Positions 9,175-61,415 of a DNA stretch of 64,000 bases are shown piece after piece; within the stretch, counting starts at the first letter, position 1, and each line of letters begins with the position of its first letter. The position numbers were made by a program, and so were the translations under genes. This DNA comes from Candidatus Crickella caballi. GTDB taxonomy: Bacteria; Bacillota; Clostridia; Peptostreptococcales; Anaerovoracaceae. The notes beneath the pieces are model-generated. The model was not told where the DNA came from. It worked only from the letters and a program-made list of their open reading frames with translations, and searched no databases. The stretch lies in contig JAGHUV010000002.1 of the NCBI GenBank assembly GCA_018064665.1, positions 16,254 to 80,253 of the forward strand, written 5' to 3'.

Positions 9175-9457
9175 TGCCCTCACTTTTGGAACATGAAACC
9201 GTAAAACCGTTGAAAATAAAATGAAAAATTCCAATTGCTTCTTGCATGACCGCACTGAAGGCAGGCTCAAGTGAAGCATTTGAGAACCAAATTGGAATTA
9301 GAAACGCGCAAACCCTTGATATTACAAAATTTAATTCCAAAACAGCATTGCTGCTCATGACGATGATCCGAGACAGACTTGCTTTAGGTGCGGGAAATTG
9401 GAATTATTGGGCTAAAAATCAAGGCTTTCAGCGTTTCATGTTCCAAAAGTGAGGGCA
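9175..9457. repeat. 283-bp non-coding element with 25-bp perfect terminal inverted repeats, copy 1 (MITE-like)
   Basis: TGCCCTCACTTTTGGAACATGAAAC at 9175-9199 is the exact reverse complement of 9433-9457; internal blocks are shared with 50053-50335 in opposite orientation. Confidence 0.9.
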
Positions 9458-9587: not shown

Positions 9588-9603
9588 CTAATAACTAAAA
9601 TAA

Positions 9604-9648
9604 GGCTGTCGCTTCTAAGGTTTATCCCCGGATGCGACAGTCTTTATT
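9604..9648 (-). terminator. Hairpin terminator downstream of the PTS IIC gene
   Basis: GGCTGTCGC (9604-9612) pairs with GCGACAGTC (9634-9642); on the - strand the stem is followed by TTATTTTAG. Confidence 0.7.
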
Positions 9649-9688
9649 AGACAGCTTTTATTATTATAAGCATTATTATAAGCAAATG

Positions 9689-10907: not shown

Positions 10908-11972
10908 ATGTCCAGAGCAAAAAAGAAAAAATCAAATAAGTTATTACTTATAATTATTCTGGTGCTGGCGATACTTGTTGCAGGCGGCGGATATTATACA
11001 ATAGGAACAGGTGCGGTTGAGCCGGGCAATGACGAGATCGTTCTTGTTGAAATACCAAGCGGTACAGGTGCATATGGCATTCTGGATATTCTGAATGAGG
11101 CAGGTCTTATAAAGAATATGACATGTGCCAAGATCAACGCAAGAATCGGAGGATATAACAGCCTTCAGGCTAATACATATGAATTCAGCCAGGGTATGAC
11201 TCTTCGAGAGATCATGAAGGCTATCAACACAGGAGACTTCAATTATGTATCCAAGAAGTCGATTGTTATCAATGACGGACTGAGACTTGAGCAGGTTGCT
11301 TCGGCAATGGCGGCTGAACTCAATCTTAGCAAGGACGAGATAATGGCAAAATGGTCGGATAAGAGCTACGTTAAGGAGCTCATCAATGACTACTGGTTCT
11401 TAACAGACGATGTGCTGGACAAGGACGTCATGTATCCGCTTGAAGGATATCTGTATGCAGACACATATTTCCTGACAACACAGGATCCGTCAATCGACGA
11501 TCTTACAAGAATGTGCCTTGACAGAATGGATACCGAGCTGACAAAGCGCAAGTCAGAGATCGAGGCTTCGGGGTTCTCCGTTCATGAGTTCCTGACGCTG
11601 ACATCGATAGTAACCAAGGAATCAAGTGCAGACGATCAGGCCAAAGTTGCAGGCGTATTTATAAACCGTCTCGACCAGGGAATCTCCCTCGGAAGCGATG
11701 TAACCGTATGCTATATTTACCAGGAGGACAGAGTTGAGCTTAAGGTAAGCCAGCTCGAGAATGACAGCCCATACAATACGCGTAAATTCGCAGGACTTCC
11801 TCCGGGACCTATCAGCGCAGTTATAGGAGATGCAATGGATGCAGTTCTTCACTATGAGAAGTCCGATAACATCTTCTTCTTCGCAGACGAAGACGGAGTG
11901 GTTCATTACTATAAGACAGAAGCTGATTTTGAGCAGGGAATCGAAGACGAAGGACTGCTTAAGGACAACTAA
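10908..11972 (+). CDS. mltG: Endolytic transglycosylase MltG (YceG-like)
   Basis: LTLTSIVTKESSADDQAKVAGVFINRLDQGISLGSDVTVCY...SPYNTRKFAGLPPGPISAV. Confidence 0.93.
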   Translation: MSRAKKKKSNKLLLIIILVLAILVAGGGYYTIGTGAVEPGNDEIVLVEIPSGTGAYGILDILNEAGLIKNMTCAKINARIGGYNSLQANTYEFSQGMTLREIMKAINTGDFNYVSKKSIVINDGLRLEQVASAMAAELNLSKDEIMAKWSDKSYVKELINDYWFLTDDVLDKDVMYPLEGYLYADTYFLTTQDPSIDDLTRMCLDRMDTELTKRKSEIEASGFSVHEFLTLTSIVTKESSADDQAKVAGVFINRLDQGISLGSDVTVCYIYQEDRVELKVSQLENDSPYNTRKFAGLPPGPISAVIGDAMDAVLHYEKSDNIFFFADEDGVVHYYKTEADFEQGIEDEGLLKDN

Positions 11973-22434: not shown

Positions 22435-22612
22435 TTGGTAAGGTCATGTTCGTGGTTGAAAGTCCATGCCAGATACGGGCAAAGGGACCCACGTAAGCAG
22501 TGAGCAAGAGGCCGCTGTGATCATGGCGTATCTTAGAAGTAAGTCCTCCGGTAATCCGGGTCAAGGCGAGTGTGGGGGCAAAGACCAGGTCGAGTGACCG
22601 AGCCGATATTTT
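22435..22612 (+). ncRNA. raiA RNA: raiA structured RNA motif candidate
   Basis: About 180-nt GC-rich structured non-coding region (GGTCATGTTCGTGGTTGAAAGTCCATGCCAG...GGTCGAGTGACC) between comF and hpf/raiA, the known genomic position of the raiA motif; boundaries approximate. Confidence 0.75.
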
Positions 22613-23207: not shown

Positions 23208-25040
23208 ATGAATTTTAAAACCAAAGAGCTTAAAGAACTGGAAGACTTATTGAATTTTGACTATGGCAGTAAGGAGCCGGCCTCAACCGAGGCCGAGCTC
23301 TATACTGCTTTAAGGAGACAGAGCAGTATAGAGCATGACGCAGCTGAAGCAGAGAGAAGAGCTCGCGCTGCAGCTGAAGAAAAAGCTCGCAACGAGGCAA
23401 GAGCCCACGCAGAAGCAAGGGCACGTGCCGCAGCTGAAGAAAGAGCACGCTATGAAGCAAGAGTTCGTGCTGCGACTGAAGAGAGGGCGCGCTATGAGGC
23501 AAGAGTTCAGGCGGAAGCAAGAGCCCGTGCTGCGGCTGAAGAGAGAGCGCGCTATGAAGCAAGAGTTCAGGCAGAGGCAAAAGCTCGCGCTGTGGCTGAG
23601 GAAAAAGCACGCAGTGAAGCAAGAGCGCAGGCAGAGGCAAGACTTCTTGAGGAGAGAAGAGCTGCAGAGCAGGAAAGACTTCGCATGAATGCGCTTGAGG
23701 AAGAGGCTGCCAGAAAGAAAGCACAGGAAGAAGCGTACGCAAGATACAGAGCAAACTCTGCTAATAATGCAGGCGTTACTAGCAGTACAAAGGCAAATCG
23801 CAAGGCTGAGAAAAAAGCCGCAAAGAGAGCTGCCGCCGGGGCTGCATCAAAGAAGGCTGCTCGTGGGGCGGCCAAGGCTGCTAAAGGGGCAAAATTCAGC
23901 AAGGCACTTGCCACTATCTATGTAATTGCACTTGCTGCTTTTGCGGCGGTTATGACTGTAATGAACGTGTTGCCGTTCAAATATCTTATTGCAATGTACG
24001 TTGTACTGGGAATTCTGAGTCTGATTATTGTTGCTCAGCTTTGCAGGGTAAGAATTAAGAAATGGGCCAGGGCTCTTGCTACGTTTATGGCAATAATACT
24101 GATATCGGTATATGGACTTGGATGTGCATACGCACTGGGTACTCTGGATTTCCTGAGCGGTTCATCAGTAAAAAACGATGCCAAGGTAGGAAAGATTTCC
24201 GAGGATTCGTTCAACGTGCTGATAACCGGAATGGATGTATGGGGAACAATCGACGAACCGGGTAGATCGGATGTTAATATGATAGTAACCGTAAATCCTA
24301 AGACCGCAACAATTCTGCTTACGTCAATTCCTCGTGACTATGAGATAAGGATGCCTAATTACGGCTATGCAACAGATAAGCTGACTCACACGGGTTTTTA
24401 CAGTCAGGATACAACAATACAGGCAATAGAGGATTTGCTGAGCATCGACATTAACTATTATGTGAAAGTTAATTTCGATACTATTGTAAGATTTGTAGAT
24501 GCAATCGGCGGTCTCGATATCTACAATGAGACGGAATTCAGGGGATCCCTGAATGACCATCTCTACGAGCAGGGCAACATCCATGTCCAGGGACGCGGAG
24601 CATTGTATTATGCAAGAGAGAGAAAGGCATTCAGCGAGGGAGATAATCAGAGAGTTAAGAACCAGCAGATAATATTCAGCGCGATGCTGGAGAAGGCAAT
24701 GTCGAGCAAGACTATGATTCTCAGCTATAGCAATGTGCTGAACAGCATGGACGATTATTTCCAGATGAGTTTTTCATCCAGAGAAGTCAGAACACTTGTA
24801 AAGATGCAGCTGGCAAAGAATCCGAAGTGGAAGATTTACAAAAATACTCTTTACGGCCAGGGTGCAAATAAAACAACTTATACGGGTGGAAGTCAGCTGC
24901 TGTATGTTACAGAACAGAATGCGACAAGCATCGCATATTCAAGCGGACTGATCAATGCAGTCCTTGAAGGTCAAACACTCGAAGAGAACGAAGATAAAAC
25001 AATTTCGATAGTTGGAGCTGAAGAAGGAGAGAATCAGTAA
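23208..25040 (+). CDS. LytR-CpsA-Psr (LCP) family protein with long Ala/Arg/Glu-repeat N-terminal region
   Basis: LCP core (FNVLITGMDVWG...RSDVNMIVTVNPKTATILLTSIPRDYEI...GRGALYYARERKAFSEGDNQRVKNQQ); hydrophobic TM segments; repeats EARVQAEARARAAAEERARY upstream. Confidence 0.9.
   Translation: MNFKTKELKELEDLLNFDYGSKEPASTEAELYTALRRQSSIEHDAAEAERRARAAAEEKARNEARAHAEARARAAAEERARYEARVRAATEERARYEARVQAEARARAAAEERARYEARVQAEAKARAVAEEKARSEARAQAEARLLEERRAAEQERLRMNALEEEAARKKAQEEAYARYRANSANNAGVTSSTKANRKAEKKAAKRAAAGAASKKAARGAAKAAKGAKFSKALATIYVIALAAFAAVMTVMNVLPFKYLIAMYVVLGILSLIIVAQLCRVRIKKWARALATFMAIILISVYGLGCAYALGTLDFLSGSSVKNDAKVGKISEDSFNVLITGMDVWGTIDEPGRSDVNMIVTVNPKTATILLTSIPRDYEIRMPNYGYATDKLTHTGFYSQDTTIQAIEDLLSIDINYYVKVNFDTIVRFVDAIGGLDIYNETEFRGSLNDHLYEQGNIHVQGRGALYYARERKAFSEGDNQRVKNQQIIFSAMLEKAMSSKTMILSYSNVLNSMDDYFQMSFSSREVRTLVKMQLAKNPKWKIYKNTLYGQGANKTTYTGGSQLLYVTEQNATSIAYSSGLINAVLEGQTLEENEDKTISIVGAEEGENQ
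23340..23645 (+). repeat. Imperfect 60-bp (20-codon) in-frame repeats in the LCP N-terminus
   Basis: EARAHAEARARAAAEERARY / EARVRAATEERARY / EARVQAEARARAAAEERARY / EARVQAEAKARAVAEEKARS / EARAQAEAR. Confidence 0.85.
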
Positions 25041-49984: not shown

Positions 49985-50038
49985 GGGCTGTCGCCCCAAG
50001 GAATGAAAACCTTAAGAAGCGACAGCCCTTTATTTTTT
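49985..50038 (+). terminator. Rho-independent terminator of addA
   Basis: GGGCTGTCGC (49985-49994)/GCGACAGCCC (50019-50028) followed by TTTATTTTTT. Confidence 0.85.
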
Positions 50039-50052
50039 AATAATGCACTCTT

Positions 50053-50335
50053 TGCCCTCACTTTTGGAACATGAATCGCTGGAGGCCTTGATATTGAAAA
50101 CAATAATTCCAATTCTGTTCGACCAAAGCGGTTTCTACTCGCGCGATCACTTTAGGGTGAGATTCGGTTTTGGAATTAAATTCTGTAATATCAAGGGTTT
50201 GCGCGATTTCAATTCCAATTTAGGTCCTTGATATTTCGCATGAACAGGTCTTTAGGAAGCTCTTGCAGGAGACGATTGGAATTTTTAAATTTATTTTCAA
50301 GGGTTTCAGGGTTTCGTGTTCCAAAAGTGAGGGCA
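50053..50335. repeat. 283-bp non-coding element with terminal inverted repeats, copy 2 (inverted relative to copy 1)
   Basis: TGCCCTCACTTTTGGAACATGAA...TTTCGTGTTCCAAAAGTGAGGGCA; same length as and collinear with reverse-complemented 9175-9457. Confidence 0.9.
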
Positions 50336-61104: not shown

Positions 61105-61155
61105 ATATTATTTGACAAATTATTTAGCAGTAATATGAGTGCTTCTTCTTGTACG

Positions 61156-61415
61156 GCACCCGCAGAGGTGGGATTTTGGTGGTTTGCTCGTGTTTTGCGC
61201 GAATCCATAGGATGCAGCCGACCCCCGCAAAGGTTCGATTTTAGCATTTTGCTCGTGCCAATCTCAAATCCATAGGATGAAGCCGACCCCCGCAAAGGAG
61301 GGATTTTGGTGGTTTGCTCGTGCTTTTCATGAATCCATAGGATACAGCCGACCCCCGCAAAGGTGGGATTTTAGCAGTTTGCTCGTGTCAAGCGCGAATT
61401 ATTGGTACCTTAGAG
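61156..61415. repeat. Four-unit 65-bp tandem array with alternating A/B subtypes
   Basis: TTTGCTCGTG recurs at 61183, 61248, 61313 and 61378 (period exactly 65); GAATCCATAGGATGCAGCCGACCCCCGCAAAGG shared. Confidence 0.9.

Follow-up and report, generated by a model that had tools for sequence, protein, structure and literature searches.

Transposon ends of the Mu and Tn7 type carry several recombinase sites, in direct order on one side and inverted on the other. Descriptions of bacterial interspersed repeats usually rest on sequence or on an RNA fold. BOX elements of Streptococcus pneumoniae, composed of boxA, boxB and boxC, range from 67 to 637 bp with the number of tandem boxB modules and are nearly confined to one species and a close relative (PMC3049150). 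REPs are palindromes of 20 to 40 bp with GTAG/CGTC-type tags (PMC3733652).

The element described here is 283 bp long and occurs twice in the window, that is, the whole stretch of 64,000 nucleotides that was analysed. Copy 2 occupies positions 50053 to 50335 and lies on the minus strand, along which its units follow in the order L, core, R. From its plus-strand start, a terminal 11 bp, TGCCCTCACTT (50053 to 50063), is identical to that of copy 1 at 11 of 11 positions, and comparison of the copies places its inverted counterpart, AAGTGAGGGCA, at 50325 to 50335. Between these ends lie unit R (50064 to 50112, plus strand), which carries TTGGAA and TTCCAA boxes and is oriented opposite to the other two; spacer S2 (50113 to 50169); the core unit (50170 to 50218, minus strand), with TTGA at unit position 25 to 28 on the minus strand; spacer S1 (50219 to 50275); and unit L (50276 to 50324, minus strand). 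Units R and L were delimited by copy alignment and a box scan. Both spacers are divergent and of fixed length, with 26/57 positions of S2 and 33/57 of S1 identical to copy 1. Copy 1, located by a whole-genome search, lies on the plus strand at 9175 to 9457, with L at 9186 to 9234, S1 at 9235 to 9291, core at 9292 to 9340, S2 at 9341 to 9397 and R at 9398 to 9446. The search paired the two copies at E = 1.4e-52 and found about 18 more in the genome.

The sequence-only reading had aligned the two copies without gaps and with equal block spacing. This proved exact: the plus strand of 50053 to 50335 and reverse-complemented 9175 to 9457, 283 bases each, align gap-free over 283/283 positions, 210 of them identical. 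Successive blocks match at 44/52, 10/10, 22/53, 10/10, 29/33, 10/10, 30/54, 10/10 and 45/51 positions, so that the three identities estimated by eye (29/33, 22/53 and 30/54) were all correct on recount. The block boundaries are only one possible cut; an alignment of all copies instead gives 11-49-57-49-57-49-11, in the order end, L, S1, core, S2, inverted R, end. The element thus comprises three 49-bp units of the form TTGGAA-N37-TTCCAA, two direct and one inverted, with a 106-bp period and two 57-bp spacers. Box centres inside a unit are about 42 bp, or four helical turns, apart. The element opens with TG and closes with CA, and its inverted arms of 62 bp are 77% identical.

Other repeats accompany the element or lie elsewhere in the window. 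A terminator-like hairpin, GGGGCTGTCGCC...GCGACAGCCC, at 49985 to 50038 is a separate repeat beside copy 2 and outside the element, and a related one lies near 9600 to 9650, by copy 1. Terminator-like hairpins of the form GGCTGTCGC...GCGACAGCC, flanked by T runs on either side, often adjoin element copies, whose orientation with respect to these terminators is mixed. The window also holds a raiA RNA (RF03072, 127 bits) at 22439 to 22602 and imperfect direct repeats at 23357 to 23680, which fall within a long reading frame and are spaced by 18, 42 and 60 bases, and at 61154 to 61399, with 65-base spacing.

The source genome of the window, G000, is a draft assembly of 1.449 Mb in 42 contigs, 94% complete, and contains about 20 copies of the element. 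Thirteen are of the main type, all 281 to 284 bp. Variant copies measure 283 bp (C21 and C28), 282 bp (C27), 271 bp (C11_21k) and 272 bp (C3_23k); the 177-bp copy on C29 corresponds to the C28 copy with exactly 106 bp, one unit plus one spacer, missing. The set also includes one partial copy, at the start of a contig, and remnants. At the C28 and C29 contig ends, about 45 bp of left flank are common together with the element while the upstream genes differ; thus, the duplication was bigger than the element. A 42-bp tandem repeat bearing the element end AAAAGTGAGGGCAAAGAGGCGGGATGCGAGCGCGTAGAGG adjoins an element at two further contig ends (C39, 1 to 94; C22, 157 to 229).

Conservation across these copies is strongly non-uniform. 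Mean pairwise identity among the main copies is 93% for L, 86% for core and 88% for R, compared to 44% for S1 and 53% for S2. The spacer values exceed those of reversed-sequence controls (20% and 31%, respectively), indicating that the spacers are homologous and have diverged through substitution rather than being freshly acquired. By Jukes-Cantor distances on a star tree, a rough guide, the spacers of the 13 main copies have accumulated roughly 650 substitutions. Nonetheless, S1 is 57 bp in 13/13 copies and S2 in 10/13, the others being 55, 56 and 56 bp, so that spacer length has changed three times at most. The earlier suggestion of selection on architecture, not recent copying, is supported by this locked length and uneven conservation: once all genomic copies were collected, the outcome was the opposite of the indels throughout and uniform divergence that neutral decay would leave.

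The element sequence was not found in 23 genomes of the same genus and 16 of the same order, and BLAST found no match to it in phage or plasmid records. When 84,980 species genomes and IMG/VR were scanned for the pattern, each collection gave one chance match; both were inspected and discarded. Exact TTGGAA-N36-38-TTCCAA occurs 58 times in G000 versus 0 to 3 times in each of 46 congeners. As far as the searched collections go, the TTGGAA family is restricted to one species.

The nearest congeners were chosen by MnmA identity (G011, 73%; G013, 70%) and sampled in part, along with two others. A scan for ungapped imperfect palindromes, which uses no sequence query, revealed a second family in G011, with seven or more arrays of four 49-bp units, GTATCAG...CTGATAC. 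Judged by their central motif, two units are direct and two inverted, and unit starts are typically 106-96-106 or 106-106-106 bp apart. When the sequence examined was scanned for any 6-mer serving as inverted boxes in repeated units, two families emerged, TTGGAA in G000 and GTATCA in G011, plus one isolated chance match; in both families the unit is 49 bp long and the period close to 106 or 95/96 bp. TTGA stands at unit position 25 to 28 in 53/53 G000 units and in 19 of the 26 distinct G011 units, within a unit-centre consensus of AAAcCcTTGAaAtT and aaA.c.TTGaaatt, respectively. Among 57 unit-to-unit periods from both species, 50 fall at 104 to 107 bp (43 of them at 106) and 7 at 95 to 96, with none at 97 to 103; the shorter class accounts for 2/38 periods in G000 and 5/19 in G011. 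The periods, which form two length classes among copies that are related and not independent, and the box spacing all fit whole turns at 10.5 to 10.6 bp per turn. The sister species share unit length, central motif and helical period with different boxes, which makes a testable case for duplex-DNA geometry as the target of selection or transposition. No other result argues as strongly as these two families that geometry rather than box sequence has been kept.

Shorter-period arrays were also found. About five further G011 arrays have TTAAGGGG...GGCAC boxes, two direct and two inverted, at a period of 62 to 63 bp (six turns). G013 has two types with a period of about 60 to 63 bp: one with TTGTCGCTAT...AAAAGTACAT, whose nine copies stand side by side over 261 positions with zero indels, and one with TTTGTCGCAAT...GACATACAT, in three copies. 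These six-turn arrays are similar to the element in their phased conserved boxes, divergent fixed-length spacers and inverted halves; they lack the 49/106 geometry, and their relatedness is unproven. No arrays were present in the roughly 310 kb of G044 or 330 kb of G021 sampled. Phased inverted boxes and ungapped imperfect palindromes form a search signature that catches families missed by sequence searches.

Several repeats of other kinds were seen in these genomes. At 11506 to 11707 of G013 locus L233, a lone long imperfect palindrome with CAGTTACC...GGTAACTG boxes is possibly a member of another phased-box family. G013 also carries a separate, simple palindromic family, an approximately 80-nt hairpin, GTACC...GCCCGTTCCTAACGGGTACAT, with about 77 copies in 770 kb (e.g., L223:6429-6623 and L182 near 18122). 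An intergenic element of about 90 nt, GAGGCTTTGCGGTAGCCGGTACTTAGCGATT...GAGCTTAGTACCGCTGCGTTAAGCCGCAACGAGGCGAGAGCCGTACTC, is common to G000, G011 and G013 (L121, L123, L124, L127, L128, L133 and L138, the last with a match near 1501); its flanking inverted repeats differ in every copy, and it looks like a structured RNA or a mobile element, with no Rfam match.

We consider it moderately probable that the TTGGAA element is MITE-like, intergenic and once mobile, that its units are putative protein-binding sites set in helical phase on duplex DNA, and that each copy is kept by purifying selection. The element would have spread within the lineage, probably after its split from the sister species. 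In each 49-bp unit, inverted boxes four turns apart would flank a central AAACCCTTGAAAT-like motif; units 10 (sometimes 9) turns apart, inverted overall, would present their sites on the same DNA face to one multimeric protein complex, in which the protein would bridge three or four units. The divergent segments, for which payload, loops and spacers had all been proposed, fit best as spacers, serving perhaps as rulers whose sequence may drift and whose length may not. The bound array may now be maintained locus by locus, mostly at the 3' ends of convergent genes. We infer a protein that reads the boxes, most probably the transposase or recombinase behind the spread of the elements or a descendant of that enzyme. 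The arms are each conserved to their own consensus and not to one another within a copy, as expected of site recognition rather than hairpin pairing. Old MITE copies should lose their boxes, yet these keep them; a purely selfish reading thus needs an added host role, and box retention favors some role at individual loci.

More tentatively, and as a possibility that we would not call probable, the families may represent a class of chromosomal nucleoprotein arrays, within one bacterial clade, with fixed geometry (49-bp units at 9 or 10 turns, with related-looking arrays at 6) and boxes replaced between sister species. If so, a fast-evolving DNA-binding protein would co-evolve with dozens of sites per genome.

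Alternatively, a host architectural protein, related to the nucleoid or to topology, might bind the arrays at mostly convergent 3' ends, so that they are kept for a host role and are not mobile DNA. We regard this as rather unlikely; it retains that much weight because old copies keep their boxes. Retention of the boxes in each old copy while the spacers saturate implies selection on individual copies, and the helical phasing also suits a bound protein. Moreover, of the 18 classifiable G000 copies, 13 have convergent neighboring genes and none has divergent ones, against a crude background of about 8 convergent gaps in 50 within the window. The rough P value is about 2e-7 against that background, or 3e-5 taking one gap in four as convergent, with counts that are not independent since the copies are related. 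However, the families of G013 and G011 showed no convergent bias, and the boxes differ wholly between sister species, with positions mostly not common to G000 and G011 at the few comparable loci, which is unusual for a host system. At two loci, the element is present in G000 while the orthologous gene end in G011 has a terminator and no element; this insertion-like turnover speaks for the once-mobile reading and, together with the species-specific families, implies that arrays have been gained or lost. One G011 array, of family 1, is found 342 bp away from the orthologue of a G000 gene that neighbors an element copy; we took this as coincidence.

It is improbable, in our judgment, that the paired arms act as a structured RNA or DNA hairpin, either in a functional transcript (a terminator or an mRNA 3' stabilizer) or as a cruciform. 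Single copies do fold as RNA with z of about -7 relative to shuffles, owing to the 62-bp inverted arms, and in one G000 copy the terminal TGCCCTCAC/GTGAGGGCA changed in step to TGTGCTCGC/GCGAGCACA. In the G013 family, the B boxes are modestly more complementary within copies than between them (P = 0.003 and 0.03), and pairing may matter in that family. In the most telling test, however, arm complementarity in G000 was 0.797 within copies versus 0.801 between copies. Furthermore, alifold found compensatory change in 1 of 49 consensus pairs on one strand and 0 of 53 on the other, our own covariation scan found no covarying helix above its permutation control, and Rfam 15 gave no match at the element at gathering score or at E ≤ 1. 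The proposal that the divergent segments are loops is not supported in this family, on the same arm and covariation results and on the weak folding of the spacers alone (mean z of about -0.3 to -0.6 versus shuffles).

Very unlikely is an ordinary MITE in neutral decay, its fixed length coincidental. Such an element would be short, multicopy, intergenic and species-restricted, with inverted ends, as this one is. The reading is already contradicted by the non-uniform conservation and the near absence of indels over the spacer substitutions, and other boxes occupy the same geometry in the sister species. No target-site duplication was found either: the 12-nt flanks of 18 copies hold no direct repeat, although old copies could have lost one. 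The missing duplication also counts against the once-mobile reading favored above, as does the failure to find an autonomous element with the same ends in the 94%-complete assembly, where every intact end pair encloses an array of 177 to 284 bp and the single ends are remnants or contig ends. A payload role for the spacers, which do differ from copy to copy at fixed length, whether as guides, as antisense or as captured sequence in the manner of CRISPR, is scarcely credible and already contradicted, because spacers from different copies are homologous in register, 15 spacers from eight copies hit nothing in their own genome beyond themselves and the homologous spacers of sister elements, none matched among 50,697 phage records, and the whole element matched no plasmid.

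These results bear on how the element compares with known systems. A CRISPR array was rejected as a likeness, since the last unit is inverted and the spacers are homologous between copies and without phage match. The arrangement of sites, with the TG start and CA end, resembles Mu/Tn7 ends, a resemblance only: the element has no transposase gene, no 5-bp target-site duplication and much longer units, and to our knowledge its site sequences are unrelated. Like MITEs, it is short (283 bp), non-coding, multicopy (about 20), intergenic and species-restricted, with long terminal inverted repeats; it differs in showing no target-site duplication or partner insertion sequence, in its conserved boxes beside saturated spacers and in a constant unit number with spacing set by helical turns. 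With REPIN/RAYT systems (PMC3116915) it shares an inverted repeat pair with a variable middle, an extragenic location and populations that persist within a genome, whereas its units are 49 bp with TTGGAA boxes and a conserved consensus that contains neither GTAG nor CGTC. In architecture, it is like BOX in being modular and intergenic, with inverted outer modules and an inner module that can be lost, as the 106-bp module missing from the C29 copy illustrates; it differs from BOX in its nearly fixed unit number and its length-locked spacers.
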